NCBI RefSeq assembly: GCF_028288465.1
Contig: NZ_JAQBNR010000019.1
Span: 62,001 to 126,000, forward strand
Reading direction: 5' to 3'
Origin: Ferruginibacter sp.
Lineage (GTDB): Bacteria > Bacteroidota > Bacteroidia > Chitinophagales > Chitinophagaceae
Length of the DNA: 64,000 nucleotides
In this document: positions 2 through 20,448 of the stretch, in pieces
How the letters are laid out: every line of letters begins with the position of its first letter
How positions within the stretch are numbered: the stretch's first letter is position 1
Program-made: the position numbers and the translations under genes
Notes under the pieces: model-generated
The model's database searches: none
Seen by the model: the letters and a program-made list of their open reading frames with translations, nothing else
Told to the model about the DNA's origin: nothing

Positions 2-1930
2 GTTCGCTACTCCCAGGATATGTTTTATGAAAACAGGGAAACAAAAATTTCCAAAAGTTTCAACGACGAAATAAATGGTTATTATTCGCTCACAAATATT
101 TATAACACAGAAAGCAATACTGATTTTCTTGCCACTTACACCAATACGTTTCAAAACAAGTTTGATCTGTCAACTTCTGTGGGAGGAAACATATTATACA
201 CATATGGCTCCAACCTGTTAACTAATTCTGCCCATGGCGGCGGCATTATCGCACCTGAATATTTTAACGTGTCCAATATTTCCCAAACAAATATCAGGTA
301 TGGTTCAGGCTATAGCCAAAAAGCTGTTTACAGTGCGTATGCTACAGCATCTTTGGGATACAAAAGCATGGCCTACCTTGATCTGACAGGCCGCAACGAC
401 TGGTCAAGTACATTACCTGCCGGTCAAAATTCTTACTTCTATCCTTCTGCTTCACTCAGTTTGCTGTTGAACAAAATGTTCAATATGGGCAACAGCATCA
501 GCCTGTTTAAAATAAGAGGCGGATGGGCCAGTGTGGGTAAAGACACGGATCCTTATAACCTGTATGGTACTGTTGGTGTGGGAAGTTTTGGTGGGATTAT
601 TACCCAGGGAACATCTTCTACCTTGAAAAACCCGAACCTGAAACCGGAAAAAGCGGTGTCTACAGAATTGGGCCTTGAATTGAACCTGTATAAAAACCGC
701 CTTCGTTTTGAAGGAACAGTATACCGTTCTGATAACAGCAACCAGGTATTATCTATCTCTACACCCGGATCATCCGGATACAGTGGCAGACAAATTAATG
801 CAGGTTTGGTTCGCAGCCAGGGTATTGAATTAAGATTAGCCGGTACCATCATTGCCAATAAAGACTGGACATGGGACATGGCTGTTAACTATACCAAAAA
901 TGACGCGTATGTTATGTCATTGGCAAACGGTGTAAATTATTTCTCTTTCTGGCAGGATGGACGTAGCGGATCATGGACTTATGCCAAAGGTCAGCCAATA
1001 CCGAACATGTTTGATGCCAACGGAAAACAGGTAATCAGCGATGGTAAACTGGGCCAGTTGTGGGATAACCAGCTAGCAACCGTTACAGATAAAACATCCA
1101 AATATTATGGCTGGCCTTTACTGGATAATGATGGATTTATTCAAACTGTAGGCAATGGCGATTTTCAACACAAAACTGTGGTAGGTAATTTCAATCCCAA
1201 GTTATTACTGGGCATACAAACATCTGTAAGCTGGAAAAGCCTCACCCTGAGCGCCAGTATTGACACCCGCTGGGGCGGCACTTTCTTTTCTCAAACCTAC
1301 CGTTACCTGGGATCGGATGCAGCAATGGCCCGCCAGGAAAATATGGGTATCCCCATTCCTGCATCTGCCAAAGGCGATATACCAGGTTACCTCAAAGCAA
1401 ATCCCGGTGCCAATATTATTGTCAGCGGTAATCTTGCTCAATTTCACCTGGTGGGCGGACCAACAACTGAGTTAGGTGGCTTCCCCTTTACCAATAACGG
1501 TATTACTATTAATGACGGAGCGTTTTATCCCGGTGTATATGAAGATGGCAATGGCGGATATATAGAAAATCTCGGTGATCCTGCAACAACAAAATATGAT
1601 ATCTATGAGGATGCAGTTACCGGTGGCTGGAACTTTGCAAGAATGAGCATGTTTGATGCGTCTTATATTAAGTTAAGAGAACTGACTTTAACTACGCAAT
1701 TGCCCAAACGTTGGTCAGATGCTTTAAAACTGCAGGGAATATCGCTTGGTGTTTATACACGCAACATCATCATCTGGACAAAAGCCAAAGCTGGTGTGGA
1801 TCCGGAAATGGCCTACCAGTTTCAAAAAGGTCGCCAGGGCAATGGTTCGCAGTTCAGGCAAGGTATAGAAAGGTACAATATCACTCCATGGACAATACCG
1901 GTTGGTGTAAAACTGAGTGTACATTTTTAA
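2..1930 (+). CDS. SusC/RagA-family TonB-linked outer membrane protein, 3' part (5' end outside window)
   Basis: Frame is open to the window start (VRYSQDMFYENRE...); beta-barrel sequence and C-terminal ...ITPWTIPVGVKLSVHF; followed by SusD. Confidence 0.93.
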   Translation, partial: VRYSQDMFYENRETKISKSFNDEINGYYSLTNIYNTESNTDFLATYTNTFQNKFDLSTSVGGNILYTYGSNLLTNSAHGGGIIAPEYFNVSNISQTNIRYGSGYSQKAVYSAYATASLGYKSMAYLDLTGRNDWSSTLPAGQNSYFYPSASLSLLLNKMFNMGNSISLFKIRGGWASVGKDTDPYNLYGTVGVGSFGGIITQGTSSTLKNPNLKPEKAVSTELGLELNLYKNRLRFEGTVYRSDNSNQVLSISTPGSSGYSGRQINAGLVRSQGIELRLAGTIIANKDWTWDMAVNYTKNDAYVMSLANGVNYFSFWQDGRSGSWTYAKGQPIPNMFDANGKQVISDGKLGQLWDNQLATVTDKTSKYYGWPLLDNDGFIQTVGNGDFQHKTVVGNFNPKLLLGIQTSVSWKSLTLSASIDTRWGGTFFSQTYRYLGSDAAMARQENMGIPIPASAKGDIPGYLKANPGANIIVSGNLAQFHLVGGPTTELGGFPFTNNGITINDGAFYPGVYEDGNGGYIENLGDPATTKYDIYEDAVTGGWNFARMSMFDASYIKLRELTLTTQLPKRWSDALKLQGISLGVYTRNIIIWTKAKAGVDPEMAYQFQKGRQGNGSQFRQGIERYNITPWTIPVGVKLSVHF

Positions 1931-1973: not shown

Positions 1974-3755
1974 ATGAAAAAAATGAAAAGCGCAAAAAAA
2001 GTAGTTCTGGTTATGTGCGTTTTCTTTGCAATAATCACGCTGGGCAATTCATGTAAAAAGTTTGATGTGCTCAACACCGATCCCAACTCTATTACACCTT
2101 CAGTCGCCTCACCGGATTACCTAATGGCAAATGTGCTTACGCAATCAGCCATGTGGTACGGAAACTACGGTTCCGGAATATTTTCCGGCGCCATGCAGCA
2201 AACTTACCAGGATGCATTTGGCAATACGTTTAGTGGTTACCAGTGGGGTCCAGAATCATGGGCAGGTAATTATTCGATATTAAGAGACAATAAACTGTTG
2301 CTGCAAAAAGCGCAGACCAACGACTGGAAATTTCACCAGGGAGTGGCGTTAACCATGAGGGCTTTTAACTTTGGTAATATCGCTGATGTTTGGGGAGATG
2401 CACCAGATTCTATGGCACTGAACGGCGACCAAAACGGAAGCGAAAATCTATATCCTGCTTTTGATTCACAGGAAGCAATTTATGCACGTGTAATTGCAGA
2501 TCTGCAGGCGGCCGTTCCGCTGCTGGATGGCAGTACAACTGATCATCCTGAAATTACGGGTGTCACCATGTCTTCGGATGTTTTTTATGGAGGTGATCCT
2601 GCAAAATGGCAAAAGCTGGCCTATTCACTCTTACTACGATATTACATGCGGGTATCTTCTAAAATGGATGTAAAAGCAAATGTTGAAGCCATTGCGTCTA
2701 AAGTAATAGCAGATAATGACGGCAGTTGGGTAATGCCTTTACCAGGCGCAGACCAGGGAACGTCTTACCAGTTTTGTTCAAAGTTCAATGGCCCTTCCGG
2801 CTATAACAGAAACAAAATGTGCGGTACGTTGACAATGAAACTAAAAGCGTTAAAAGATCCACGGATTGTGATAATGGCCGAACCTGTTGTAACCCGGTCA
2901 GTAGTAGATGCAGCTAAATTTGCACCCGGCGATAATACAACTTTGCTGAACGTAGTCAATGGCATACGTTATATTAACCCTGCCGCCGCCGCCGCTTCTA
3001 AATTTAAACAGTTTGATACAGCGACTTATGCGCAGGACAGGCCATACGGTGCGGTTGCAGCCAGTATCTACAGTTTGTACGATACTTCAGCAAGGTATGT
3101 GGGAATTCCGATCAGCTACAGCAATTTCGATTTTGAATACAATATCAACGGAACCGGCACGCAGTCTACTTCTTTAAATGATTATGTGTCTTACCTGAGA
3201 AGAGATATTTACGATAACCCAACCGGTGATTTGCTCAATCAAAAACTGTTAACCTACAGTGAAGTATGTTTTGATTTAGCGGAAGCTGCGTTAAAAGGAT
3301 GGAATGTAAATGGTACCGCAGAAGATTGGTATAACAAAGGCGTACAGGCAAGTTTTGATACATGGAAAGTTTTCAGCGACTACCAGTCAGATGTAAATGA
3401 TTATTATGGCTGCGTAAAAGATTTCGCCAGCTATATCGCACAGCCATCAGTTAAGTTCAATAATACACTGCAAAGAATTATAGAACAAAAATGGATTGCT
3501 TCGTGGCAGGCTTGTAACGAAGCATTTATGGATTGGAGAAGAACTGGTTACCCCACACTCAACGTAGGATGGGCTTCGTACCGGGGCGCTATCCCACTTC
3601 GTTTTGCGTACGACAATACAGAACTGCAAAACAATGCAGCCAATGGTGATGCGGCAATAGCCAAATTAAAACCATCTTCTTACGTAGGTACAGACGGCAA
3701 CAATAGCTCCTGGTCAAAATTCTGGTTGGTTGACGGAACTGGTAAGCCCTGGTAA
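1974..3755 (+). CDS. SusD/RagB-family nutrient-binding outer membrane lipoprotein
   Basis: Lipoprotein signal (ITLGNSCKKFDVLNTDPNS), SusD-like sequence, immediately after SusC. Confidence 0.93.
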   Translation: MKKMKSAKKVVLVMCVFFAIITLGNSCKKFDVLNTDPNSITPSVASPDYLMANVLTQSAMWYGNYGSGIFSGAMQQTYQDAFGNTFSGYQWGPESWAGNYSILRDNKLLLQKAQTNDWKFHQGVALTMRAFNFGNIADVWGDAPDSMALNGDQNGSENLYPAFDSQEAIYARVIADLQAAVPLLDGSTTDHPEITGVTMSSDVFYGGDPAKWQKLAYSLLLRYYMRVSSKMDVKANVEAIASKVIADNDGSWVMPLPGADQGTSYQFCSKFNGPSGYNRNKMCGTLTMKLKALKDPRIVIMAEPVVTRSVVDAAKFAPGDNTTLLNVVNGIRYINPAAAAASKFKQFDTATYAQDRPYGAVAASIYSLYDTSARYVGIPISYSNFDFEYNINGTGTQSTSLNDYVSYLRRDIYDNPTGDLLNQKLLTYSEVCFDLAEAALKGWNVNGTAEDWYNKGVQASFDTWKVFSDYQSDVNDYYGCVKDFASYIAQPSVKFNNTLQRIIEQKWIASWQACNEAFMDWRRTGYPTLNVGWASYRGAIPLRFAYDNTELQNNAANGDAAIAKLKPSSYVGTDGNNSSWSKFWLVDGTGKPW

Positions 3756-5825
3756 ATGAAGTACAGCGCTTACACCATAAGGCAGAAAGGAGCTTTGTCA
3801 GCTATCGCGGTTATTTTTAGCCTGTTGTGTTATGGCCAGGTAAATAACACCTATAATTTGATGCCGGCACCTTTTGCAATACAGGCGGCAACAACCGGCA
3901 GGATCGCAATTGATCAGCAATTTCGGGTTGCAATATCCGGCACCGCCAACGACCGGATATATGCAGAAGCCAGCCGGTTTGTAAGACGGCTGAGTAACAA
4001 AACAGGTATTTTCCTGGATAAACAGGAATTTGTAACGCGGCAGCAGGATAAGTCAACAGCAACCTTGCTTGTTACTATACAACGCAACGGATTGCTGAAA
4101 CTGGGGGAAGATGAAAGTTATGTAATTGAAACCAGTGGACGGCAAGTGCTTGTTACCGCTGTCACTGATTTGGGCGCCATTCATGCATTGGAAACTTTAA
4201 TACAATTGGTTAGTACAGATGCTGCCGGATATTACATTCCGGCAGTGTCTGTTAAAGACCATCCCCGTTTTGCCTGGCGTGGTTTATTGCTGGATGTGGC
4301 CCTGCATTTTATGCCAGTGGAGGTGGTAAAAAGAACGCTGGATGGAATGGCTGCGGTCAAGATGAATGTACTGCACCTGCACCTTTGCAACGACCAGGGA
4401 TTCAGAGTGGAGTCAAAAGTTTTTCCCCGGTTGCAGCAGGTAGCTTCCGATGGTATTTATTACACACAGGAAGATATCAAAACCATTGTAAAATATGCAG
4501 CACAAAGAGGCATTCGTGTGGTGCCGGAATTTGTTGTGCCGGCGCATACCACGGCCATATTAACGGCCTATCCTGAACTGGCAAGCGTTAATAGAACCTA
4601 CTCATTACAAAGATATTTTGGCGTATTTGATCCGGTGCTGGACCCTACCAACGAAAAAGTATACCCGTTTTTAGAGAAACTGTTTACGGAAATGGCCTTC
4701 CTTTTTCCGGATGAATATTTTCATATTGGCGGCGATGAAAACACGGGTAAAGATTGGGAAGCGGTGCCGCACATCAAAAAATTTATGCAGACACATGGCA
4801 TGAAAACGACCATGGATTTACAGACTTATTTTAATCAGCGCTTACTGCCCATCATTCGCAAAGCCGGTAAAAAAATGATGGGGTGGGACGAGGTGTTTCA
4901 TCCGGGTTTGCCAAAGGAAATTTTCATTCAATCGTGGCGGGGAAACGAAAGTTTTTATAGTTCAGTAAAGCAGGGATATAAAGCCATTCTTTCTTATGGT
5001 TATTATATTGATTTGATGCAACCAGCTTCTTATCACTACCAGAATGATCCCATACCGGATAGCGTGAAGCTGACACCGGACGAAAAGAAATTGATTCTGG
5101 GAGGTGAGGCAACTATGTGGAGCGAATTGATAACACCAACAACAGTTGACTCAAGAATATGGCCAAGAACTGCTGCTATTGCGGAAAGATTATGGTCTCC
5201 TAAAGCAGTCAGCGACACTGATGATATGTACAGGCGGCTGGATATTGTAAGCCTGCATCTTGAATCGCTCGGACTGCAACACCTGACTTATAAACCGGCA
5301 ATGATGCGGCAGCTTTGCAATGGAAATAATATTAAGGCACTGGAGGTTTTGGTAAGTGTGCTGGAGCCCTTAAAAATATACGATCGCAACGAAGGCGATA
5401 CGATGTACACGGTATTTTCTCCCTTTACAAAAATTGCTGATGTCGCTACGCCTGATCAGCCGTTACCAAGGATATTTAATAAATCCGTGCAGCAATTTTT
5501 AATGAATTCATCCGCAGGTAAGGAAAAAAAAATTACGAACCAATTGATCCTCTGGAAAGAAAATGACGCAGCATTTAAACAGCTGCTTGCGAACTCGCCG
5601 GTATTGCTGGAAGCTGCTCCATTATCACAACATCTTTCCTTGCTGGGGGAGGCTGGCCTGGAATCGATTGAATACATAAAGCAACACAAAACCGCGGATG
5701 CTGAATGGCTTAAACAACAACTGGTCGTAATTAAACAGGCACGGATGCAGGGCGGCAGATGCGAAATACAGATAGTTGATACCATACAAAAATTAGTTAC
5801 GGCTGCGGCGGGCAAACAGCAATAG
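3756..5825 (+). CDS. beta-N-acetylhexosaminidase, GH20 family
   Basis: HFMPVEVVKRTLDGMAAVKMNVLHLHLCNDQGFR and catalytic HIGGDE motif; ATG directly abuts the susD stop (TAAATG). Confidence 0.93.
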   Translation: MKYSAYTIRQKGALSAIAVIFSLLCYGQVNNTYNLMPAPFAIQAATTGRIAIDQQFRVAISGTANDRIYAEASRFVRRLSNKTGIFLDKQEFVTRQQDKSTATLLVTIQRNGLLKLGEDESYVIETSGRQVLVTAVTDLGAIHALETLIQLVSTDAAGYYIPAVSVKDHPRFAWRGLLLDVALHFMPVEVVKRTLDGMAAVKMNVLHLHLCNDQGFRVESKVFPRLQQVASDGIYYTQEDIKTIVKYAAQRGIRVVPEFVVPAHTTAILTAYPELASVNRTYSLQRYFGVFDPVLDPTNEKVYPFLEKLFTEMAFLFPDEYFHIGGDENTGKDWEAVPHIKKFMQTHGMKTTMDLQTYFNQRLLPIIRKAGKKMMGWDEVFHPGLPKEIFIQSWRGNESFYSSVKQGYKAILSYGYYIDLMQPASYHYQNDPIPDSVKLTPDEKKLILGGEATMWSELITPTTVDSRIWPRTAAIAERLWSPKAVSDTDDMYRRLDIVSLHLESLGLQHLTYKPAMMRQLCNGNNIKALEVLVSVLEPLKIYDRNEGDTMYTVFSPFTKIADVATPDQPLPRIFNKSVQQFLMNSSAGKEKKITNQLILWKENDAAFKQLLANSPVLLEAAPLSQHLSLLGEAGLESIEYIKQHKTADAEWLKQQLVVIKQARMQGGRCEIQIVDTIQKLVTAAAGKQQ

Positions 5826-5871: not shown

Positions 5872-8121
5872 ATGAGGATAAAATTTACTGGCTTAATTCT
5901 TTTAACATGGTGTTTAAAAACTGCCTGCGCACAAATAACTGCACATACTCCAACAGCAGCCAAAAGCAATAGGAAGGAAGGATTTTTCCAGGAATACCAT
6001 GAGGCATATCCGATCGGAAAGACCAGCGCTGAAAATAACGTCCGGAGTATTGCCGTGGATAAATCATCCAATGTTTTTATAACTACTGAAGCAGGTGTTT
6101 TTGAAAAATCCAGTGGCGCAAATACATGGACAGAGCTTCCATTTCAGGAGGAAGATAAAGGCCCTGCTTATGCCGTAGCCACTGATGGCAATGGCACGTT
6201 GTGGATTGGCAACTGGAACGGCGTTTTTACATTTCAACATAATCTGCTCACCAAAATGCCCGGCACAACAGGGCCAGTATCCCTGATTTGTGTAGCCAAA
6301 GAAGGGGTGTATGCACTCGGACCTCAAGGCGTTTGGTTGAATGCAGGCAATCAGTTTCTTCAAAAAAATTATCCTGTGGCCCGCTCCGTGAGGGGTGTTG
6401 TGTCAGATGGTAAAGCCGGCTTGTGGATTACCAGCGATGCAGGCCTTTACCATGTAACGGAAAAAGCAACTCATCATTTTTATAAAACAGATATTTTGTT
6501 AAGCGCAGAACTGAAAGGGCTGGCGTTTGATGAGAAAGAAAGTCTATGGATTACCGGGCTGGGAGGCGTTTCTGTTATCAGCAATGGCAAACGGCAAACT
6601 GCAATTACGCCAGCCAATGGCTGCCCGTCCATTTATACGAGTTGTGTAAAGCAGTCTCCTGACAAGGTGATGTGGATAGGTACAAAGGTTGGCGTAATTC
6701 GTTTTTATCCCGGCGGCAAACACTCTCTTTTATTCAGCCGCCGCTGGCTGATAAATGACCAGGTAAATGACCTTGTTTTTGACCAAGAAGGAAGTGCGTG
6801 GATCGCCACAACCAACGGTGTAAGCGTTATAAAAAAAAGATGGATAACACTTGCCCAAAAGGAGGATTATTTTTATGGCGTTCAAATGGCAAGGCATATC
6901 AGGGAACCATGGATATCGGGCCAGTGCCGCATGGCAGTAGCCGGCGATACTGCTCATTGTTCGCCTGAAGATGATGACAATGACGGGGAATACACAGGCA
7001 ACTATTTAGCCATGGAGTCATTTCGGTTTGCAGTTACCAAAAGTGAAGATGCAAGAGAAAAAGCAAAAAAGGCATTTCATTTTTTAAAAGAATTAAAGGA
7101 CATCACCGGCGGCGACGGTTACTTTGCCCGGACGATGGTGCCCATTGGCTGGGCTGCAGAAGTGCATGACACGAACCGCTTGTATACGGCAAGAGAAAGG
7201 GCAGAAGAACTGGTGAATGAACCCAGGTTTAAACCGGTTGAAACCCGCTGGCATAAATCAGCCGACGGGCGATGGTTATGGAAAGGCGATGCCAGCAGCG
7301 ACGAATGGTGCGGCCATATGATGGGGTACTATTTTTATTATCAACTGGCGGCCACTGAAGAAGAGAAAGCCTTGGTACGACAGCATGTAGCGTCACTTGT
7401 TGATCATTTAATTGCGCACAACTATACCATGATGGATACAGATGGAACGCATACCCGATGGGGCGTGTGGTCGCCTGCATTATTGAACAGAGATCCTGAA
7501 TGGCAACTGGATAGAAGTGAGAATTCAATGGAGTTGCTGGCATTTTTGAAGCTGGCTTATTATTGTACAAATGACGAAAAATATCAGCAGCATTATCAGC
7601 AGCTGATCAGTAAAGAACACTACCTGGAGAATATGGCTGCTTTGACAGAGCAGAACCCTGCATGGTTTATTTATTTTGATGTTACGATGCAGGCTTATTT
7701 ATTTCCAATATTAATTCGTTGCGAAAATGACCAGCGGCTGCGGGCTTTTTATCAGCAGCTGATGGACAAATGGATGGAACAACGGAAGGGTGATCATAAC
7801 CCGCTGATCAATTTTTTATACTGTTATGCCCGTGATAAAAAAGCAGAGCAGCAAGCATCCCTTGATTTTTTGATTAATACACCGCTTGATCTCAGGGACT
7901 GGCATATTGATCATACCAAAAGAGAAGATATTCATATGGTACATACCCCGGTGTTAAATGAATTACAGGTAAGTGAATTGCCACCGCCGGAAATCAGAAA
8001 CACGGTGCGCTGGGACAACAACCCCTGGTCAGCAACAGGCGGATCAGATATGGTGGAGCGTGAGCCGGTGTTTTGGCTGTACCCTTACTGGATGGGCAGG
8101 TATCTCAACATGATTGATTAA
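5872..8121 (+). CDS. two-component-regulator-type beta-propeller fused to C-terminal alpha-helical (enzyme-like) domain, copy 1
   Basis: N-terminal repeats (LWIGNWNGVFTF, LWITSDAGLYHV, MWIGTKVGVIRF, AWIATTNGVSVI); C-terminal domain with EDDDNDGEYTGNYLAMESFRFAVTKS, SSDEWCGHM and WLYPYWMGRYL; no kinase or DNA-binding region. Track uses TTG 5869; ATG at 5872. Confidence 0.8.
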   Translation: MRIKFTGLILLTWCLKTACAQITAHTPTAAKSNRKEGFFQEYHEAYPIGKTSAENNVRSIAVDKSSNVFITTEAGVFEKSSGANTWTELPFQEEDKGPAYAVATDGNGTLWIGNWNGVFTFQHNLLTKMPGTTGPVSLICVAKEGVYALGPQGVWLNAGNQFLQKNYPVARSVRGVVSDGKAGLWITSDAGLYHVTEKATHHFYKTDILLSAELKGLAFDEKESLWITGLGGVSVISNGKRQTAITPANGCPSIYTSCVKQSPDKVMWIGTKVGVIRFYPGGKHSLLFSRRWLINDQVNDLVFDQEGSAWIATTNGVSVIKKRWITLAQKEDYFYGVQMARHIREPWISGQCRMAVAGDTAHCSPEDDDNDGEYTGNYLAMESFRFAVTKSEDAREKAKKAFHFLKELKDITGGDGYFARTMVPIGWAAEVHDTNRLYTARERAEELVNEPRFKPVETRWHKSADGRWLWKGDASSDEWCGHMMGYYFYYQLAATEEEKALVRQHVASLVDHLIAHNYTMMDTDGTHTRWGVWSPALLNRDPEWQLDRSENSMELLAFLKLAYYCTNDEKYQQHYQQLISKEHYLENMAALTEQNPAWFIYFDVTMQAYLFPILIRCENDQRLRAFYQQLMDKWMEQRKGDHNPLINFLYCYARDKKAEQQASLDFLINTPLDLRDWHIDHTKREDIHMVHTPVLNELQVSELPPPEIRNTVRWDNNPWSATGGSDMVEREPVFWLYPYWMGRYLNMID

Positions 8122-8141
8122 TTTTTAAGGATAAAATAATA

Positions 8142-10439
8142 ATGATGATTAAAAGAAAGATTGGTTTTTTGTTGCTTGCAGGTTTATTTTTTAATGTGTT
8201 GAAGATGGGTGCTACAGATGGCGGTGGCTTACCCGTTCCTCCAGTATTTAAGGACACAGCCTCGTTGCAGGCTTATAGTATAAAATATACGCCCGATGGG
8301 ATGAAAGATGCAGGCAATATTGTTTTCAAAAAAGTATTTAGCGATCGCAATGGAGTTGTATTGATTCAATCTTCACGAGGACTGTTAAAAAGATCCGGCG
8401 GCCAGTTTTTGTATCCTGGTCAGCTGGTGCCTGATGTATCCTATCTGCCTATCGTTGACAAGAAAATAAGCAGCCTTGGCCTGTATCAAAACCAATTTGT
8501 ATTTGCCGACGATAAGGCCATCTTAAGCAATGCCTGGGCAGGGAAGCTATACAGCCTTCATACCATGCCCGATGTTACATTATTGAGTGGCGGAGACGAT
8601 TTTTCCTTTTTAATTTCCAACGGTACTTCTGTACAATACATAAAGGATTCAAAACTGTTGTTTGAATGGAAAAGCGAAGAAAAACTGGTTGATATTTTAT
8701 TTGATAAAAAGAGCAACCTGTTCTGGCTTTTGACAGCAAAGAGCATTAGTGCTTTTAACCCTGGCGATAAAAAAGTATATCCTAAATACACGGGGGATGG
8801 GTTAACCTGTTTCGGTCTTGCAGGCAATATCAATGAAATATTGGTTGGAACACACAATGGCTATTTTAAATTGAATGGTGGTACCGGAAAGAAGTCAGCA
8901 GAAATAAACAACGCATTGCCTTGCCGCGATTTAACCGTAATAAAAAACGTTGACAATCGAATTTGGTTTGGCTCTGTTAACGGCGCATTTACGCAGGAAC
9001 CGGATGGTAAATTTAAATACTATGCTTCAAAACGCTGGCTGCCCGGTAATAGTGTTAACGATATTGCAGCGGGCAGCAATCATTCGGTATTGGTATTAAC
9101 AAGCAAGGGCCTGGGAGAAATACATTTTGAGCCAATGACACTGCATGATAAAGCGATGTATTATGAGCAGCAGGTGCGTGACAGGCATATCCGCCATGGT
9201 TTCAATGCTACTATTACAAGAATGAAAAATGGTAATGTGAATACTGGTTCACTGGAAGATTCAGACAATGATGGATTGTGGACCTGCATGTACCTGGGAG
9301 GCGAAGTATTTCGGTATGCGGCCACCAAGTCGCCGGAAGCACTGGATAATTGCCGGGAATCACTCGATGCAATTGAGCGGTTGTACACGGTGACTAAAAT
9401 CAAAGGATTTCCTGCCCGTTCTTTTGAAAGAAGAGGATATGCAGTGGCAGATACACAGGTGTGGAAGCACGCGGAAGATCCGGAATGGGACTGGAAATCT
9501 ACCACCAGCAGCGACGAAGCCATTGGGCATATGTTTGTTTTTGGCGCCATAGCAGAATTAATTGATGACCCTGCAATGAAGGCCAAAGCCATCCGGTTAA
9601 TGGATGGCCTGATGCAGCATATTGTTGACCACCAGTTTTACATGATCGACTGGAACGGCGAGCCGACCCGTTGGGGGAGATGGAACCCGGAATATGTAAA
9701 TGCAATGCCAAAAAACGTGGGTGACCGGAAGATTACTTCTTCCAATATTGTGTCGATGTTACAAACGGCCTATCATTTTACCGGCAAAAAAATCTTTAAA
9801 GAAAAAGCGCTGGAACTGATGAATAAATATGGTTACCTGGAAAACCTGATGCGGCCGATGAAAGAAATTGGTCTTGCTCCCGGCGATGCGGGTGACCTGG
9901 CTAAACTTCTTTCAGATGGCTGGAACCATTCAGATGATGAAATGTATTTTTTGGGTTACTGGGGTTTATACCGGTATGCGTTAAATGACACGCTCAAAGC
10001 TAAATTTAAAGCATCTATCCTGGATCACTGGCAAATTGAACGGCCGGAGAAAGAAGCCGCCTGGGATATTTTTACCGCCATCACCGGCGTAAAACAATTT
10101 GACCTGGATGAAGCAACCTGGTATCTGCAAAAATATCCGCTTGACATGATTGAATGGAAAGTAACCAACAGTGAAAGAAAAGACGTTGTATTTATTCCAC
10201 AAAATTTCCGCAATCAAACAATTAAAGAAGTGTTGCCACCGGATGAATTACCGATTAACCGGCACAACTCCAACCGGTTTGATTTGGATGGAGGTGATGA
10301 CAATGGAATCACAGAATACAGTGCGGGAGATATCTGGTTATTACCATACTGGATGGGCCGCTACCTAAAAATAATCAGTGCGCCGGTTAACAACGTTCAT
10401 GCCGCCGCAGGGCCGATGAATAAAGGAGTTGGCCGTTAG
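8142..10439 (+). CDS. beta-propeller fused to C-terminal alpha-helical (enzyme-like) domain, copy 2 (tandem paralogue)
   Basis: Same architecture and collinear motifs as 5872-8121 (EDSDNDGLWTCMYLGGEVFRYAATKS, TSSDEAIGHM, WLLPYWMGRYL). Confidence 0.8.
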   Translation: MMIKRKIGFLLLAGLFFNVLKMGATDGGGLPVPPVFKDTASLQAYSIKYTPDGMKDAGNIVFKKVFSDRNGVVLIQSSRGLLKRSGGQFLYPGQLVPDVSYLPIVDKKISSLGLYQNQFVFADDKAILSNAWAGKLYSLHTMPDVTLLSGGDDFSFLISNGTSVQYIKDSKLLFEWKSEEKLVDILFDKKSNLFWLLTAKSISAFNPGDKKVYPKYTGDGLTCFGLAGNINEILVGTHNGYFKLNGGTGKKSAEINNALPCRDLTVIKNVDNRIWFGSVNGAFTQEPDGKFKYYASKRWLPGNSVNDIAAGSNHSVLVLTSKGLGEIHFEPMTLHDKAMYYEQQVRDRHIRHGFNATITRMKNGNVNTGSLEDSDNDGLWTCMYLGGEVFRYAATKSPEALDNCRESLDAIERLYTVTKIKGFPARSFERRGYAVADTQVWKHAEDPEWDWKSTTSSDEAIGHMFVFGAIAELIDDPAMKAKAIRLMDGLMQHIVDHQFYMIDWNGEPTRWGRWNPEYVNAMPKNVGDRKITSSNIVSMLQTAYHFTGKKIFKEKALELMNKYGYLENLMRPMKEIGLAPGDAGDLAKLLSDGWNHSDDEMYFLGYWGLYRYALNDTLKAKFKASILDHWQIERPEKEAAWDIFTAITGVKQFDLDEATWYLQKYPLDMIEWKVTNSERKDVVFIPQNFRNQTIKEVLPPDELPINRHNSNRFDLDGGDDNGITEYSAGDIWLLPYWMGRYLKIISAPVNNVHAAAGPMNKGVGR

Positions 10440-10565: not shown

Positions 10566-11663
10566 ATGATTATTCAAACCAAACGGCTTATTTCACTGGA
10601 TGCATTACGGGGTTTTACTATTGCAGCAATGATTATGGTAAACTATCCCGGTAGCGAAGACGCCGTTTATTTTACGCTGCGTCATACGGAGTGGAATGGA
10701 TTGTCTTTTACAGACCAGGTGGCACCTTACTTTTTGTTTTTTGTTGGTGCTTCCATTGCGCTGGCTTATTCTAGACGCCTGCAAGCGAATGTTAGCCGGA
10801 GTTCGATGTATAAAAAAATAGTTACCCGGTCGCTGAAAATTTATGCGGTGGGTATGTTTTTAAACCTGATGCCCGCTTTTGATTTTCATAACATCCGGTG
10901 GACAGGAACGCTGCAGCGAATTGCTGTGGTATTTTTTATTTCGGCGATTATTTACCTGAATACCAACTGGAAACAACAGGCCTGGATTGCGGCTATTACA
11001 TTGGTTTTGTATTGGCTGTTAATAACCTGTATTCCAATGCCCGGCTATGGAAAAGTAATGCTGGAGCCGGGAGTAAATATTGTGGCGCTGGTTGACAATC
11101 ATTTGTTACCCGGCAAAATGTGGCGTGGCAACTGGGACCCCGAAAGTATCTTAACGACGTTTACTTCAGTCGTGTCCTGCATAACGGGGATGCTTGCCGG
11201 ACATTTGATGCTGAGTGATAAAAGTCCGGATGAAAAAATCAACTGGTTAATGACAGCAGGCGTTTTTCTTGCAATCACAGGCTATTTCTGGGGATTGGTT
11301 TTTCCGGTAAATGAAAATCTTTGGACCAGTTCCTTTGTGCTGGTTACCTCCGGGTTTGCATCGTTGCTTTTTGGCGCTCTTTATTTTTTGGTTGATATAA
11401 AAGGTAAAATAAGGGGCACACTGCCCGGAATTATTTTCGGCGCCAATGCAATCACCATCTATTTTTTAGCTGATGTATGGGCATTGTTTTTTTACGTGGC
11501 AAAATTTGGAGGGTCATCCTTAAATGAAAAATTTGTTAATGGTTTAAGTAACGCTGGTGCAGACCCAAAGTTGGCGAGCTTAATATATGCCCTGCTTTTT
11601 GTTTGCATCAATTTTATTCCCGCCTGGTGGCTCTATAAAAGAAAGCTATTTATTAAGCTTTGA
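10566..11663 (+). CDS. heparan-alpha-glucosaminide N-acetyltransferase-like (HGSNAT/NagX, DUF5009) integral membrane acyltransferase
   Basis: RLISLDALRGFTIAAMIMVNYPG start typical of the family, multiple TM segments. Confidence 0.85.
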   Translation: MIIQTKRLISLDALRGFTIAAMIMVNYPGSEDAVYFTLRHTEWNGLSFTDQVAPYFLFFVGASIALAYSRRLQANVSRSSMYKKIVTRSLKIYAVGMFLNLMPAFDFHNIRWTGTLQRIAVVFFISAIIYLNTNWKQQAWIAAITLVLYWLLITCIPMPGYGKVMLEPGVNIVALVDNHLLPGKMWRGNWDPESILTTFTSVVSCITGMLAGHLMLSDKSPDEKINWLMTAGVFLAITGYFWGLVFPVNENLWTSSFVLVTSGFASLLFGALYFLVDIKGKIRGTLPGIIFGANAITIYFLADVWALFFYVAKFGGSSLNEKFVNGLSNAGADPKLASLIYALLFVCINFIPAWWLYKRKLFIKL

Positions 11664-11966
11664 CGAAACCATGTGTGAAAAAAAATTGCCTTATCATATT
11701 GATGCGTACTTCTTTTTTTGACAGCAATAGCAACTAAAAAGTAAGATGTATTAAGGTATAATTGATAGTTTGACTGAATGTTGCTGCGATTAAAAGATAG
11801 AAAGAGACAACACAGATGTTTTATTAAACGAGTGGGATACTCGCTTATTAAGAATGTTTAAAAAAATAATTATTTCATTACAAAACAAAATAAAAACTGT
11901 ATGGAATATTCACTACTTTTAAAATTGAAATTGCTTTGCTATAATACTCATTGAATAACAAGTCTA

Positions 11967-12563
11967 ATGACACAAGAATGCGATAAGGCATTGTTAAAAC
12001 AAGTCTCAGAAGGCGATCAAACAGCTTTTAAACAATTGTTTAAAATTCACAGGGATGCTATTTATTCTATAGCTTTTACTTTTGCGAAATCGGTTGAACT
12101 GTCTGAGGAAATTGTACAGGATGTATTTTTAACGATATGGCTCAGGAGGGCCAGTTTAAATGACATCCAAAATTTTAAGGCGTATCTTTTTGTTATAACA
12201 CGAAACCATGTGTATCATGTTTTAAAGCAAGTCGCCCAAAATTATACAACTACCTTAGTGCCCGTTGAAGATCATTTAATTGCGGATAATAACACTATTG
12301 ATCTTGTAATAGAAAAAGAATATAGTTTATTGTTAAAAAGGGCAATTGCCAGGTTGCCAAATCAGCAGCGGGAAGTATATACGCTCATGAGGGATCATGG
12401 TTTAAAACGCAATGAAGTGGCCTGCCAGCTTAATTTACAGCCTGAAACTGTTAAGTTTCATCTTGCACAAGCCATGAAAAATATCCGCTCCTTTTGTATG
12501 CTCCACCTCAACTCGTTTATGTTGTTTTTTGTCTGCATACATAAGTATATCCAAATTTTTTAA
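11967..12563 (+). CDS. RNA polymerase sigma-70 factor, ECF subfamily
   Basis: Region 2 (FKIHRDAIYSIAFTFAKSVELSEEIVQDVFLTIWLRR) and region 4 (LPNQQREVYTLMRDHGLKRNEVACQLNLQPETVKFHLAQAMKNIR). Confidence 0.93.
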   Translation: MTQECDKALLKQVSEGDQTAFKQLFKIHRDAIYSIAFTFAKSVELSEEIVQDVFLTIWLRRASLNDIQNFKAYLFVITRNHVYHVLKQVAQNYTTTLVPVEDHLIADNNTIDLVIEKEYSLLLKRAIARLPNQQREVYTLMRDHGLKRNEVACQLNLQPETVKFHLAQAMKNIRSFCMLHLNSFMLFFVCIHKYIQIF

Positions 12564-12652
12564 AAAAAGATTCCACCCAACCCACCCAAGACCATACAAA
12601 AAATACTCCTGCATACGGAAGGTTGATGAAATGTGTAACCTCTGTTTAATTT

Positions 12653-13849
12653 ATGTCAGTATTGCGTTTAGAATATTTATTGGATTGCTATATAAAAAAT
12701 AAATGCAGCGGGCAGGAAGAGGAAGAATTGATGGCTATACTGGCCGATCCCGAAAGCGAAGTATTCGTTCATGATGTTATCGACCGTTTAATGCAGCAGT
12801 CTGCTGGTGAAAAACAGTTATCGGATAGCGCTGCGGCCAGCATTTTGAAAACTATTTTAAAAGATGGTGGCGATGCAGCTATTCCTGTAAAAAAAAATGA
12901 AACAGTTTTTTCATTTTGGATGCGTTTGGCTGCCTCGGTTTTGATTTTACTTGTTGGTGCGTATTTTATTTTTGAAAAGAATGAGCGCACCATCGGAAAT
13001 GCGGAAGATAAAAAGCAAGTGGCCAGATTACCTGAAAAACCGGCACCCATTTTACCCGGGCGAAACAGGGCAATACTTACTACTGCAGATGGCAAGTCGA
13101 TTATATTGGATAGTATGCAAAACGGACAGCTTGCCAGGCAGGGGACTACCAATATACAAAAGCTGGGTGGTTTATTAATTTATAAGGCACCTGCATCTTT
13201 TAACGACGGTACACAGATTACTTACAATACACTTTCTACACCGCGGGGAGGACAATACCAGGTTATATTGTCGGACGGAACCAGGGTTTGGCTGAATGCC
13301 GCTTCCGAAATCCGCTATCCTACCGTATTTTCTGGTAACGTGCGTGAGGTAACCTTAACCGGGGAGGCTTATTTTGAAGTGGCAAAAAATAAAGCAAAGC
13401 CTTTCCAGGTAAAGGCGGGCGCCATGAAGATTGCAGTATTGGGTACCCACTTTAATGTGAATGCATATGAGGATGAAGCTGAAACAAAAACAAGCTTGCT
13501 GGAAGGCAGCGTACAAATAAGCCAGGGTAACCTTTCGGGCTTGCTGAAGCCGGGGCAGCAGGCAGTGATACAAAATAAAAGTAACCACATTAAAACAGGC
13601 AATGTTGATTTAACGGAGGTAGTGGCATGGAAGAATGGACTTTTTCGGTTTGAGGGAGCAGATATTAAAACAATCATGCGGGAAATAGGACGCTGGTATG
13701 ATGTGGAAATTGAGTATGCGGGCAAAGTACCCAACCATAGGTTTGTAGGAAAAATAAACAGGAACGTTGAACTGTCGGAAGTATTGAGAATACTGGAATT
13801 GAGCAACGTCAAGTTTTTGGTTGCAGGAAAAAAAATCATTGTGCTGTAA
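12653..13849 (+). CDS. FecR-family anti-sigma factor / sigma regulator
   Basis: Single TM after a short cytoplasmic domain; FecR core (TPRGGQYQVILSDGTRVWLNAASEIRYPTVFSGNVREVTLTGEAYFEVAKN). Confidence 0.93.
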   Translation: MSVLRLEYLLDCYIKNKCSGQEEEELMAILADPESEVFVHDVIDRLMQQSAGEKQLSDSAAASILKTILKDGGDAAIPVKKNETVFSFWMRLAASVLILLVGAYFIFEKNERTIGNAEDKKQVARLPEKPAPILPGRNRAILTTADGKSIILDSMQNGQLARQGTTNIQKLGGLLIYKAPASFNDGTQITYNTLSTPRGGQYQVILSDGTRVWLNAASEIRYPTVFSGNVREVTLTGEAYFEVAKNKAKPFQVKAGAMKIAVLGTHFNVNAYEDEAETKTSLLEGSVQISQGNLSGLLKPGQQAVIQNKSNHIKTGNVDLTEVVAWKNGLFRFEGADIKTIMREIGRWYDVEIEYAGKVPNHRFVGKINRNVELSEVLRILELSNVKFLVAGKKIIVL

Positions 13850-13855
13850 ACATCC

Positions 13856-13876
13856 ACCCGGTTATACTCACCGGGT
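13856..13876 (+). other. hairpin immediately after fecR stop (ACCCGGT-tatactc-ACCGGGT)
   Basis: Perfect 7-bp stem, 7-nt loop, no T tract. Confidence 0.5.
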
Positions 13877-13960
13877 AATCAAAATTAATTTCAGGATAAT
13901 TTATTAATGTTTTAATAGAATGGGTTGCATATACCCTTTTAATACATCTTTCTTAATGGC

Positions 13961-13993
13961 AAAAAAGCCAGCAATGTTCGTTGCATTGCTGGC
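13961..13993 (-). terminator. Rho-independent terminator on the minus strand between fecR and susC
   Basis: RC reads GCCAGCAATG-CAACGAA-CATTGCTGGC-TTTTTT: perfect 10-bp stem followed by U6. Confidence 0.85.
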
Positions 13994-14040
13994 GAATTAT
14001 GGCTATAAAACTGTCGCTCAAACAATTTTCTTAACCAAAA
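13961..14040 (-). ncRNA. predicted cis-antisense small RNA (about 80 nt) opposite the susC 5' leader
   Basis: Complete minus-strand promoter (14046-14077) followed by intrinsic terminator (13961-13993); no coding ORF of note; all neighbouring genes on plus strand. Confidence 0.5.
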
Positions 14041-14045
14041 CAAGT

Positions 14046-14077
14046 CAAAATTATGATTTTAACCGTCGCTTGCCAAA
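14046..14077 (-). promoter_or_regulatory. Bacteroidetes-type promoter on the minus strand, TTTG-N20-TAATTTTG
   Basis: RC of 14074-14077 is TTTG; RC of 14046-14053 is TAATTTTG; 20-bp spacer. Confidence 0.6.
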
Positions 14078-14121
14078 GCAAAAATGGCACGAAAGCCCTA
14101 AAGGCCAAAATGTTGATGATT

Positions 14122-17100
14122 ATGAAATTAACGATTCCCCTACTCTTATTTTTTACGTTCCAGGTAACAGCAAATGGTTATGCACAGAAGGTAACCATCG
14201 TAAAAAAAAATGTTTCTTTAACCGAAGTCTTTAAGTCAATTGAGCAACAAACAACGTTTTTGTTTTTCTTTGATAAGGACCTGGTAGAAGAAACCAATCC
14301 TATTGATGTTAAGATTAAAAATGCAACGCTGGATGAAGCCTTAAAAATTTGCCTTAAAGACCAGCCGCTTACTTATACGATTGTCAGTAACACCATCGTA
14401 ATTCAACACAAAGTGATTTCTGCGCCTGCGGTTGCTGCATTAAATGAAGTCATGGCTTTACCTCCGCCTGTTGAAATTCGCGGAAGGGTGGTAAACCAAA
14501 AGGGAGAACCTTTACAAAACGTTTCTGTGTTAATAGCAGGAACCAATATAGGTACCACGACAGATGCCGATGGTCATTTTGCGCTAAACGCACCTGACAA
14601 CAAAGGCATAGAGCTGGAAGTTTCCAATATCGGGTATCAAAAGAAAAGAGTAAAAGTAGGTAACCAAAAGGAGCTTACTATTGTGCTTGAAGAGGAAGTG
14701 TCGGGAATGAATGAAGTGGTGGTTATAGGATATGGTACTGCCAGGAAAAAAGACGTTACAGGCGCAGTATCAAATATCAACTCTAAAAGGCTTTTAGATA
14801 AACCAACTGTAAACGTTGGCCAGGCCTTACAAAATAAAATTGCAGGGGTTGATGTAAACAATATGGGTGGTGGTGTTCCGGGACAAAACCCATTGATCCG
14901 TATCCGTGGTACAAACTCTATTACGGCAGGCAACGACCCATTATATGTTGTTGATGGAGTAGTAGGCGTAGCAAATCCTTTAGCTACTTTAAACCCCAAT
15001 GATATCAATTCAATCGACGTTTTAAAAGATGCATCGGCCACTGCTATTTATGGTGCCCGCGGCGCAAACGGCGTTATCATTATTACTACCAAACGCGGCT
15101 CCAGTGGTAAACCGCAAATCACTATCAGCAGTACCGTATCTGAAAATACGTTGCAAAGGCATTTATATGCTTTAAATGCAGAGCAGTTGATGTACCTGTA
15201 TCTGCAATCAATGAACAACGCTACCAAATTCGGATCGGTAGTACCGGCAAATGATTTTCGTGGCACAACCACAGGTAGCACCAGTTTTTCTGAAATGCCC
15301 TGGTTGTTTGAACAGGTTCCGGCGGGAAACTATGCCATACCATTGGTTGGCAGGGATGGCAAAAGCTATGCACCAAAATATGATACCAATTGGGAAGACC
15401 TGATGTTCGCCAACTCAACGTCTCAAAACCATTATGTAGCAATCCGTGGTGGCAATGAAGTTGCTAAATTCTCAGTTTCATTGGGAGCAACCGACGAGCG
15501 GGGCCTGATGAAGAAGTCTTACTTTAAACGCCTCACTGGTAGAATTGCCGGTGATATCAAAGCATTAAAATGGCTTACGTTATCAACCTCAATAGGCTTT
15601 AACAAAAGCAGGGCAACCGGCGATGATGGTATTACCCGTTCTGCTACAGAAGTATGGTCTATTTTACCGGTACAATATCCGCAGGATCCTTCACTTGGAA
15701 TATACGCCGGTCGCTGGGGAACCAACTTTGATTTTAAAACTGGTGAGCAATGGTACAATGTAGTATTCAGAAGATCACAGATCTATCAGCAAAATAATAT
15801 CGGCCAGGTAACAGGTAGTTTTACTTCGGTTGCGCAAATAACAAAAGACCTGAGCTTTAAGAGTGATTTCTCGATCGACTATAACAATTATAAAAACAAT
15901 AGTTACAGCGGAAAATTATATGGAGGTGATGGTAGTGCTTCTATAAACGCAAGCCAAACTTACTTCTGGCAAAATGAAAACTATTTTAACTACAATAAAA
16001 AGATTGGTAAAAATCATATGCTGAGTGCAATTTTAGGGCTTTCCTGGTCCAAAAATTCTTACCAGAATATGAATACTTCCAACTCTGTATTCTTTTCCAA
16101 CTTCTTTGGGTACTCCAATTTGGGTGCTGGTGCAGCAGCCCGTCCCGGCTCCGGCAGCAGCGATGGCAACAACACATTGAATTCTTATTTCTCCAGGATC
16201 AATTACACATACAAAGACAAGTACGTGCTTACTGTAACGGGTCGTGAAGATGGTTCATCCCGTTTTGGAGCAAACAACAAATATGGCTTCTTTCCATCTG
16301 CAGGGGTGGCCTGGAGAGCATCACAGGAAAATTTCATGAAGAATGTAGATGCGATCTCAAACCTGAAAGTCAGGGCAAGTATCGGTCGTACGGGTAACCA
16401 GGAAATTGGTAGCTATGTTACGCAACCATTCATCAGTACAGCTAACGTTGTATTAAATAACGCTACTCAAATCGGCCTTTTCCCAAGCTCGGTTGCTAAC
16501 CCCGATTTGAAATGGGAAACAACAACCCAAAAAGATGTAGGTGTTGAATTGGGACTTTTTCACGATCGCCTGAATATAGGGGTTGATTATTACGATAAAT
16601 TAACCAGCAACATGTTGCTGAATGTACCATTGCCTTTATCAACCACAACCGGTTCTGTAATTGAGAATTATGGTAAAGTTCAAAACAGGGGATGGGAATT
16701 TACGGTGAATACATTGAACATTTCCACAAAGGATTTTAAATGGAATACGGATATCACCGTAGCCGCCAACCGAAACAAAATTGTACAATTAGGCCCTACA
16801 GGAGCGCCCATTTACAGCCAGACAGGTGCAGGTAATGGTACCTCTGTATTTATGATTGGACAACCTATTGGTGAATTTTTTGGACTAACCCGCTTAGGCA
16901 CATATAGCACGCAGGAAGCATCATTAGCAGCCCGCTATGGTTTAAGGCCAGGCGACCTGAAATTTTTGGACAAGAATAACGATGGCAAAATTGATTTGCT
17001 GACAGATGGCAGTATAATGGGAAATGCATTTCCTGATTGGGTGATTGGATTTCATAACGCTGTTAACTATAAAAGCTTTGATGCCGGTCTTGATATACAA

Positions 17101-17538
17101 ATTATCCAGGGCGTTAAAAAGGCATTTGTACATGAATCTGCAGAAGATCGCCAGTTGGTTTCCGGTGGTTTAAATTCAACGTTAACGGCTTGGCGGCCAG
17201 ATGCACAAAATTCCATGGTTGCCCAGTTGCGGCCAGGTAATGGTGGTGCTTATTACCAGTCGTTCCCAGATACACATATGATATACGATGGTTCTTTCAT
17301 CAGGGGTGCAAACGCCACTCTCGGATATACCTTATCTGATAAATTGGTGACCAGGTGGCACATGCAGAGAATCAGGATTTACCTGAGCGCAGTTAATTTC
17401 TTCCTTATAACGAAGGCCGCGGGCTACGACCCACAGGGCAGTTCACTTGATAAAAATATTTCGACGGTACCCAATACTGATAAATACCAGTATCCTACAC
17501 CATCGGTTTATTCTTTCGGCCTGAACGTTAGTTTATAA
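14122..17538 (+). CDS. SusC/RagA-family TonB-linked outer membrane protein with STN domain
   Basis: Signal peptide MKLTIPLLLFFTFQVTANGYAQ, STN domain, carboxypeptidase-like repeat, plug VVVIGYGTARKKDVTGAVS; track start 14053 is less likely than internal ATG 14122. Confidence 0.93.
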   Translation: MKLTIPLLLFFTFQVTANGYAQKVTIVKKNVSLTEVFKSIEQQTTFLFFFDKDLVEETNPIDVKIKNATLDEALKICLKDQPLTYTIVSNTIVIQHKVISAPAVAALNEVMALPPPVEIRGRVVNQKGEPLQNVSVLIAGTNIGTTTDADGHFALNAPDNKGIELEVSNIGYQKKRVKVGNQKELTIVLEEEVSGMNEVVVIGYGTARKKDVTGAVSNINSKRLLDKPTVNVGQALQNKIAGVDVNNMGGGVPGQNPLIRIRGTNSITAGNDPLYVVDGVVGVANPLATLNPNDINSIDVLKDASATAIYGARGANGVIIITTKRGSSGKPQITISSTVSENTLQRHLYALNAEQLMYLYLQSMNNATKFGSVVPANDFRGTTTGSTSFSEMPWLFEQVPAGNYAIPLVGRDGKSYAPKYDTNWEDLMFANSTSQNHYVAIRGGNEVAKFSVSLGATDERGLMKKSYFKRLTGRIAGDIKALKWLTLSTSIGFNKSRATGDDGITRSATEVWSILPVQYPQDPSLGIYAGRWGTNFDFKTGEQWYNVVFRRSQIYQQNNIGQVTGSFTSVAQITKDLSFKSDFSIDYNNYKNNSYSGKLYGGDGSASINASQTYFWQNENYFNYNKKIGKNHMLSAILGLSWSKNSYQNMNTSNSVFFSNFFGYSNLGAGAAARPGSGSSDGNNTLNSYFSRINYTYKDKYVLTVTGREDGSSRFGANNKYGFFPSAGVAWRASQENFMKNVDAISNLKVRASIGRTGNQEIGSYVTQPFISTANVVLNNATQIGLFPSSVANPDLKWETTTQKDVGVELGLFHDRLNIGVDYYDKLTSNMLLNVPLPLSTTTGSVIENYGKVQNRGWEFTVNTLNISTKDFKWNTDITVAANRNKIVQLGPTGAPIYSQTGAGNGTSVFMIGQPIGEFFGLTRLGTYSTQEASLAARYGLRPGDLKFLDKNNDGKIDLLTDGSIMGNAFPDWVIGFHNAVNYKSFDAGLDIQIIQGVKKAFVHESAEDRQLVSGGLNSTLTAWRPDAQNSMVAQLRPGNGGAYYQSFPDTHMIYDGSFIRGANATLGYTLSDKLVTRWHMQRIRIYLSAVNFFLITKAAGYDPQGSSLDKNISTVPNTDKYQYPTPSVYSFGLNVSL

Positions 17539-17572
17539 TTTTTAGCAGCTCATCATTTTAAAAAATTACAAC

Positions 17573-19228: not shown

Positions 19229-19269
19229 AAAGGAACAACAACTTTATTAACTAATTTATACAGAACAAA

Positions 19270-20448
19270 ATGAAAAATAATATAACGTGCATATTAATAG
19301 CTGCAATTGTATTGTTGCAAAGCTGCAGCAAACAAGACTATTTCGATGTTCCTAAAGATAGCAGCGGGAATGTGATAATTACCACGGTAGCAAGTACTAC
19401 GTCTGCTGGCATCAGTACTTTGGATGATAATTTTACAATCAATGCGGTGTTACCCAATGCAAAAGCTGGCGATGAAATGACGGTGGAGTTACTAAAGCAG
19501 CAGGTTCCGGCAGGGGCTCCCGCAGGTAGCGCAACGCAATTATTGCCTATTGCCGGTACGCAAAAAAAAGTGACCGTAGCGGCTGACTTTACTGCGTCTG
19601 TACAATTTACCAGGAGCGAAGCTACCATGACAAAAGCAGGAGACGTGGTAACAGTAACTTTTGCCGGAAAGACAGAGTCTGCAATGAGAGTAATTACCAT
19701 GGTAAAAGCTACCACAGTTTCAGGTACCAAATACAATAATAAAGTAGTTCCTATTATTCGTTCTGCCGGTACTGCTTATTTTGAGGTTAAGGTGGCACCT
19801 AAACTGGCAGCCTATGCCGGTACGGTACTGGTAAAAAATAAGAATGGCATTAATGATCCCTGGCAAACTGTCGGCAGCTTTCCCGGTACATCGCAGGTAC
19901 CTATTTCCGGTGATGACTTTGCTATTGGAAAAGATACTATGTACTATGCCTTTATATCCCAGGTAGGCAGTTATTCTGATACGGTTACCCAGACAATACT
20001 TAACAGCAATCCTTATTTTCAATTTAAGAAAACAGGGAAAATGACATTGGGTGGCGCTTCTGCCGGCGTTAATATGTTTGTAAACGGAGCGGTAGCTGCA
20101 AGCAATGCCATGGCAATGATGGCCATTGATGATAGCTCATTAACAATTCATGGAGGGTCTGCATGGGCTGTTGGCGGCAAGGGTATTTCCTTTGTTAAAT
20201 CAACACTTGCCGTGTACAACGAAAACAATTCAGATAAAATAATGACGGCTTTCATGGCAGGAACACCAACAGCAACTGCCGACCCCACTTCAGGCGAAGG
20301 CGTGTATATTTTTAAAATCGTAAACGGACCCAATGCCACAGACATTTTTTACGGAATTTTAAAAGTTGTAAGTATAGTACCGGGATCTTCAATTAATTAT
20401 GAGTACAGGATTGGTAACCTGTATGCCCAGCTTGCTGTCCTTCAATAA
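19270..20448 (+). CDS. predicted outer membrane lipoprotein of unknown function (possible surface glycan-binding protein)
   Basis: Lipobox VLLQSCSKQD; third gene after susC-susD, a position often held by surface glycan-binding proteins. Confidence 0.55.
   Translation: MKNNITCILIAAIVLLQSCSKQDYFDVPKDSSGNVIITTVASTTSAGISTLDDNFTINAVLPNAKAGDEMTVELLKQQVPAGAPAGSATQLLPIAGTQKKVTVAADFTASVQFTRSEATMTKAGDVVTVTFAGKTESAMRVITMVKATTVSGTKYNNKVVPIIRSAGTAYFEVKVAPKLAAYAGTVLVKNKNGINDPWQTVGSFPGTSQVPISGDDFAIGKDTMYYAFISQVGSYSDTVTQTILNSNPYFQFKKTGKMTLGGASAGVNMFVNGAVAASNAMAMMAIDDSSLTIHGGSAWAVGGKGISFVKSTLAVYNENNSDKIMTAFMAGTPTATADPTSGEGVYIFKIVNGPNATDIFYGILKVVSIVPGSSINYEYRIGNLYAQLAVLQ

Follow-up and report, generated by a model that had tools for sequence, protein, structure and literature searches.

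Paired propeller and helical-barrel proteins in a Ferruginibacter polysaccharide utilization locus: candidate enzymes acting on an amino-sugar glycan

In a 64,000-nucleotide stretch of the Ferruginibacter sp. genome (GCF_028288465.1, contig NZ_JAQBNR010000019.1, positions 62,001 to 126,000; hereafter, the window), two adjacent genes encode proteins, P1 and P2, in which a beta-propeller of the kind found in hybrid two-component system (HTCS) sensors is joined to a helical barrel. What do such proteins do in the polysaccharide utilization locus (PUL) that encodes them? The answer that we somewhat favor is that P1 and P2 are PUL enzymes, consisting of a propeller and a toroid catalytic domain, which would hydrolyze an amino-sugar glycan via a pair of carboxylates. 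Both are exported members of one family, probably a new kind of toroid-type enzymes acting on glycans, that has no name in Pfam or NCBIfam and that may already be present in the unclassified set of CAZy.

Two exported paralogues with a sensor-type propeller

The two proteins and their domains, all on the + strand, are as follows.

5872..8121, +: P1, exported propeller and predicted alpha/alpha-toroid protein, 749 amino acids from the ATG at 5872 (open reading frame, BLASTP, AlphaFold2)
5983..6846, +: P1 seven-bladed beta-propeller, residues 39-326, Reg_prop repeats (Pfam Reg_prop, AlphaFold2 strands, Foldseek)
6850..8118, +: P1 C-terminal helical barrel, residues 328-750, candidate catalytic module (AlphaFold2 paired helices, remote GH127 profile match)
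8142..10439, +: P2, paralogue of P1 with the same architecture, 765 amino acids (ATG at 8142; BLASTP, AlphaFold2)
8247..9137, +: P2 beta-propeller (profile match to 3ott/3va6/4a2l, AlphaFold2 strands)
9141..10385, +: P2 C-terminal helical barrel (AlphaFold2, profile match between the P1 and P2 barrels with 100% probability)

The P1 open reading frame comprises 750 codons when counted from the TTG at 5869, which is residue 1 in our numbering; the first ATG lies at 5872 and the frame ends at 8121. A first-pass annotation of this DNA had described tandem paralogues with a propeller start and a common C-terminal region, and indeed, both reading frames are present and their products share 27% identity over 528 residues (BLASTP, E = 2e-51), with the profiles of the C-terminal regions matching at an hhalign probability of 100 (E = 3.5e-94). 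No other family members were found in the 6.9-Mb source genome, and the P1 barrel has a 97% match in Ferruginibacter paludis. The AlphaFold2 models, for which 71 homologues of P1 and 38 of P2 served as the alignment, reached a mean predicted local distance difference test (pLDDT) score of 93.7 and a predicted template modeling (pTM) score of 0.89 for P1, and 89.1 and 0.87, respectively, for P2. Both models open with a signal peptide-like helix; judged by eye, the signal peptides have the appearance of signal peptidase I (SPI) substrates rather than of lipoproteins.

In P1, the propeller was recognized by Pfam as Reg_prop (E = 9e-10, 38 bits against a cut-off of 20.4), whereas the P2 propeller falls below Pfam detection and was identified through the profile of its homologues, which matched the HTCS sensor propellers 3ott and 3va6 (E = 3e-18); the assignment to propeller repeats of hybrid two-component sensors is thus borne out for both. 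In the models, both propellers are seven-bladed, and their nearest PDB relatives are HTCS sensor propellers of Bacteroides. P1 strands 39-326 form the seven blades, with an N-terminal strand closing the ring, and the last strand leads straight into helix 328-343. Sequence searches for relatives of P1 and P2 reach the propeller only, namely Reg_prop in Pfam and, in the PDB, three sensor propellers from Bacteroides (4a2l, 3v9f, and 3ott). Foldseek, run on the full-length models against the PDB and viral libraries, with propellers filling the match lists, matched P1 to the propellers of BT4663 and Vgb lyase. The periplasmic propellers of HTCS proteins (BT4663, 4a2l; BT3049, 3v9f; BT4673, 3ott), which have Reg_prop-type repeats in common with P1 and P2 by both sequence and fold, differ from them in architecture: P1 and P2 have one propeller rather than two, followed by the helical barrel, and lack a transmembrane helix and a kinase. 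As the first-pass annotation had stated, a kinase is lacking; neither a histidine kinase nor a receiver or AraC domain was detected by Pfam after the propeller, and both reading frames stop after the barrel. Propeller repeats are also shared with PorZ of type IX secretion (NF052228; NCBIfam E = 4.8e-10), but that match, at 38.5 bits, stays below the cut-off of 260, and the barrel is left unmatched.

The C-terminal barrel is predicted to be an alpha/alpha-toroid

Both models contain approximately 420 residues of paired helices downstream of the propeller. In P1, consecutive pairs (372-390/393-411, 477-494/497-516, 543-567/570-583, 602-617/622-638, and 645-655/661-670) are followed by helix 734-745, an arrangement typical of alpha/alpha-toroids that was taken from the AlphaFold2 secondary-structure string rather than from coordinates. 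A profile restricted to the barrel retrieved nothing but chance matches from the PDB sequences. When 49 barrels were scanned singly against Pfam, 5 weakly matched glycoside hydrolase (GH) family 127 (PF07944; best E = 4.8e-4), whereas P1 and P2 themselves gave no match. The barrel profile scored 55.9 against GH127 (sequences of the same class; probability 85%), compared with at most 23 for 30 block-shuffled templates, 15-23 for reversed templates, at most 21 for 13 non-toroid neighbor families, 24 for GH92, itself a helical-barrel family, and 31 for GH20. Because the GH127 score exceeds the shuffled, reversed, and unrelated-family controls, kinship of the barrel to the toroid superfamily is supported by profile comparison, with GH127 as the nearest of the tested families and the only toroid family among them clearly above the nulls. 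AGE epimerases (PF07221; 36.8), GH76 (32), and GH88/GH105 (GH88, 31) have the general alpha/alpha-toroid pattern predicted for the barrel, but their profile scores of 31-37 are not clearly over the best unrelated control, GH20 (31); GH88/GH105 (PF07470) gave no significant profile match to the barrel (hhalign probability 5%). DUF2264, GH78, the YyaL type, alginate lyase, and GH92 were discarded as relatives, their profiles being without signal.

The GH127/GH146 beta-L-arabinofuranosidases, with which the family has the predicted alpha/alpha-barrel type in common, use a Cys3-Glu zinc site and a Cys nucleophile (PMC10850190). Because this zinc-cysteine center is missing from the barrel, in which no cysteine is conserved in both P1 and P2, we rejected membership in GH127. 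Identity to GH127 is approximately 14%. Overall, the predicted structure and the remote GH127 match, along with the weaker signals to other toroid families, agree with the alpha/alpha-toroid originally proposed, and, judging from the models, the barrel very probably has this fold. Sequence and profile searches assigned the barrel to neither a known non-enzymatic domain nor a well-characterized family.

Conservation and candidate active-site residues

Sequence conservation is concentrated in the barrel. Mean identity between P1 and P2 is 30% for the barrels and 18% for the propellers; within P1, the respective values are 66% and 48%, and within P2, 54% and 34%. The motifs named in the first-pass annotation are present, align between P1 and P2, and belong to the best-conserved positions in an alignment of 72 homologues; they are ED.DNDG (about 367-373 in P1 and 372-378 in P2), (T/A)SSDE..GHM (P1 476-484), TRWG.W.P (P1 529-536), and YWMGRYL (P1 740-746). 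Residues invariant in the 72 proteins include D370, D372, R421, S476, D478, W531, D604, R685, D687, and Y740. The principal sites are the following.

6970..6987, +: P1 D368-x-D-N-D-G373 loop, preceding the first of the inner helices; all 72 homologues have D370 and D372; loop missing from a propeller-less homologue
7294..7305, +: P1 S476-S477-D478-E479, where an inner helix begins; D478 is a putative catalytic carboxylate (conservation)
7453..7476, +: P1 T529-R-W-G-V-W-S-P536 strand/loop motif; T529, W531, and P536 invariant, also in the propeller-less homologue
7678..7680, +: P1 D604, second carboxylate conserved across all homologues
8086..8106, +: P1 Y740-W-M-G-R-Y-L746 closing helix motif (conservation)
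9507..9518, +: P2 S456-S-D458-E459, counterpart of P1 476-479 (alignment)
9933..9935, +: P2 D598, counterpart of P1 D604 (alignment)

In toroid enzymes, the active site lies on the side where the inner helices start, and D370/D372, D478, D604, and Y740 are located in inner helices or at their N-termini. The P1 DNDG motif has the DxDxDG form of calcium-binding loops and may bind calcium. A rare propeller-less homologue (428 amino acids; L190:9533-10816, - strand; one copy in 297 genomes), encoded in a genome that also bears P1 and P2, retains R421, W461, W471, S476-D478, D523, T529, W531, P536, D604, R685, E730, and YW..RY, but has lost the DNDG loop. A gene of the FGE-sulfatase type adjoins it.

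Distribution and history of the pair

The family is patchily distributed, being present in 7 of 396 Bacteroidota genomes. In the GTDB collection, 114 candidate stretches encode relatives, of which we examined the best 80, all from Bacteroidota insofar as the titles show; a tblastn search of plasmids with the P1 barrel gave no match. In the maximum-likelihood tree, the core P1 rows (30) and core P2 rows (16) formed two sister clades, both with 100/99 support once two long-branched rows lying between the clades (L007 and L010) were set aside. Each clade includes Chitinophagaceae, Spirosomataceae, Fulvivirgaceae, and Flavobacteriaceae; therefore, the duplication is old and the pair has been kept, and this retention argues for distinct, complementary functions of P1 and P2.

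Genomic neighborhood and recurrent partners

One strand of the window carries, with short gaps, the end of a SusC gene, SusD, GH20, P1, P2, and a NagX/HGSNAT-like gene, so that an adjacent SusC/SusD pair and carbohydrate-active enzymes share one directon, as expected of a PUL.

20..1930, +: SusC-type TonB-dependent transporter, C-terminal part, cut by the window start (clusters with SusC of other loci)
1974..3755, +: SusD-like lipoprotein (Pfam)
3756..5825, +: GH20 beta-hexosaminidase, sharing the operon with P1 and P2 (Pfam E = 2.1e-96)
10566..11663, +: NagX/HGSNAT-like membrane acetyltransferase (PF07786, HGSNAT_cat, E = 3.3e-10)

The proximity to GH20 and to an HGSNAT/NagX-like acyltransferase noted in the first pass thus rests on Pfam matches for both, with the NagX model of NCBIfam scoring 195 bits, below its cut-off of 480. 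Directly downstream (11967-20448) lies a second PUL-like block with ECF-type sigma factor-like (11967), FecR-like (12653), SusC-like (14053), SusD-like (17573), and small lipoprotein-like (19270) reading frames.

To characterize the partners across relatives, we compared same-strand genes within 250-bp steps of P1/P2 (276 genes) with the other genes of the same loci (512 genes). Enriched inside versus outside were NagX (18/2), YdjC deacetylase (21/0), BNR_2 (28/2), PD40/DUF3748 (27/0), PfkB-HAD (23/0), GH20 (12/2), GH92 (6/0), purple acid phosphatase (PAP; 11/2), and GDPD (8/1), with Fisher p-values of 2e-3 to 2e-13 that are too small, and counts that are inflated, the loci being akin. The association with GH20 extends to gene fusion: in L036 and L038, GH20 and P1 form a single reading frame of approximately 1,409 codons, in which the GH20 C-terminus runs directly into the propeller and the P1 signal peptide is lost, and a like fusion joins two P2 copies in L027, L036, and L038. 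A second, chitobiase-type GH20 is encoded in L042, L063, L078, and L198; in L198 it adjoins a ROK kinase-like gene that has a homologue in L042. Genome-wide fitness data have led to the proposal that NagX acetylates glucosamine in the periplasm (PMC9007349). The suggested link to amino-sugar polymers is thereby supported by the recurrent GH20, NagX, and YdjC partners, and an amino-sugar glycan is the best-supported target because of GH20, the second GH20s, the ROK-like gene, and the proposed role of NagX.

Unexpectedly, phosphoesterases recur as well, with GDPD in the P1/P2 directons of L027, L029, L034, L095, L101, L103, L194, and L198, and PAP in those of L042, L044, L047, L055, L063, L078, L103, L191, L193, L195, and L198, which suggests that the substrate may bear phosphate. 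In L194, a P2 copy is flanked on one side by a gene that combines a GDPD domain with a BD-FAE esterase domain (7035-8714, just ahead of P2) and on the other by a true GH127 gene (10929-12800, just after P2). In several genera, P1 or P2 adjoins a member of an ~800-amino acid family without a Pfam match, a candidate unannotated PUL component, examples of which are listed below.

L037:521-2938
L195:11402-13759
L196:139-2571
L028:1252-3726

Weighing the possible functions

The barrel is, in our judgment, probably an enzyme, and P1 and P2 are likely glycan-active; whether the target is an amino-sugar glycan we consider an even call, and a phosphate-bearing target is a tentative idea that we lean against. 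The enzymatic role put forward in the first pass fits the placement of conserved carboxylates at inner-helix N-termini and the GH20-P1 fusions. Several points weigh against the favored reading. No accepted match covers the barrel in Pfam, NCBIfam, or PDB sequences; the GH127 match is remote, so that its active site is not transferable; we found no experimentally characterized homologue; the genomic context is heterogeneous, with many P1 loci lacking GH20 and NagX; the partner statistics are overstated as described above; and the invariant barrel residues could serve binding instead of catalysis.

The last point leads to the possibility that P1 and P2 are non-catalytic glycan-binding or scaffold proteins of the cell surface, in which the propeller and a dead toroid form a lobe of the SusC/SusD receptor and fusion to GH20 provides only a tether. 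Their position directly behind SusC/SusD is that of surface glycan-binding proteins, and the propeller resembles ligand-binding sensor propellers. However, the carboxylates, Arg, and aromatic residues of the barrel are invariant across the family, even in the propeller-less homologue, the barrel has a lower rate of evolution than the propeller, whereas binding-only modules usually diverge faster, and the signal peptides are not those of lipoproteins by eye, which together make this explanation unlikely. We judge similarly improbable that the toroid is an enzyme other than a hydrolase, such as a polysaccharide lyase, epimerase, or phosphorylase acting on a uronate- or phosphate-bearing glycan. 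The fold is common to lyases and AGE-type epimerases, consistent with the AGE profile score; UxuA and SDR genes lie behind the cluster in some loci of Dyadobacter, and the L193 directon includes a DHDPS/NAL-like aldolase and an SSS symporter. Yet UxuA/SDR genes lie within the directon in only 5 loci and elsewhere behind a divergent LacI gene, such that they may be bystanders, and we down-weighted a uronate link accordingly; furthermore, known lyases have Tyr/His/Asn/Arg sets, and the invariant Asp pairs are more in keeping with hydrolysis.

Catalysis by the propeller, with the helical domain as an accessory, would parallel virginiamycin B lyase and other propeller lyases, and superposition of the P1 propeller onto Vgb lyase gives a TM score of 0.77 of the target, but this is very unlikely given the mere 18% identity between the P1 and P2 propellers, the mostly structural (Gly/Trp) or domain-interface nature of the propeller invariants, and the existence of the propeller-less homologue. 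Least probable of all is that P1 and P2 are HTCS-derived regulators or sensors that lost the kinase, as the kinship of their propellers might suggest, because they are exported, soluble, and devoid of a kinase segment, and because a conserved polar barrel and GH20 fusion suit an effector rather than a sensor.

A possible mechanism

If P1 and P2 are glycan hydrolases, SusC/SusD, and perhaps the propellers, which would have been taken from or share descent with HTCS-type sensor propellers, would capture the glycan, and the cleft of the barrel, a toroid catalytic domain remotely akin to the GH127/AGE-type superfamily, would hydrolyze the glycosidic bond via a carboxylate pair, D478 and D604 in P1 and D458 and D598 in P2. 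The conserved Trp, Arg, and Tyr could form sugar subsites, with the DxDxDG loop possibly holding calcium. P1 and P2 might cut different linkages or positions in the same glycan, while GH20 would trim beta-N-acetylhexosamine (beta-HexNAc), NagX would re-acetylate the freed periplasmic glucosamine, and SusC/SusD would take up the pieces.

A bolder version, which we consider improbable, is that P1 and P2 found a new GH family for a phosphate-bearing amino-sugar glycan, for example, one that is teichoic-acid-like, glycosylphosphatidylinositol (GPI)/glycosyl inositol phosphorylceramide (GIPC)-like, or a phosphomannan. GDPD and the purple acid phosphatases would then strip phosphate, GH20, GH92, and YdjC would trim, and P1 and P2 would cut core linkages that are otherwise inaccessible. 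The open-access literature that we searched contained no description of the propeller-toroid architecture or of a phosphate-glycan PUL.

Implications

Approximately 100 Bacteroidota loci carry this family, whose conserved barrel has no Pfam or NCBIfam model. P1 and P2 would exemplify the reuse of a sensor-type propeller in effector enzymes. If they are glycosidases, they would add a carbohydrate-active enzyme family of unusual architecture, and the phosphoesterase-rich PULs around them would become interpretable.

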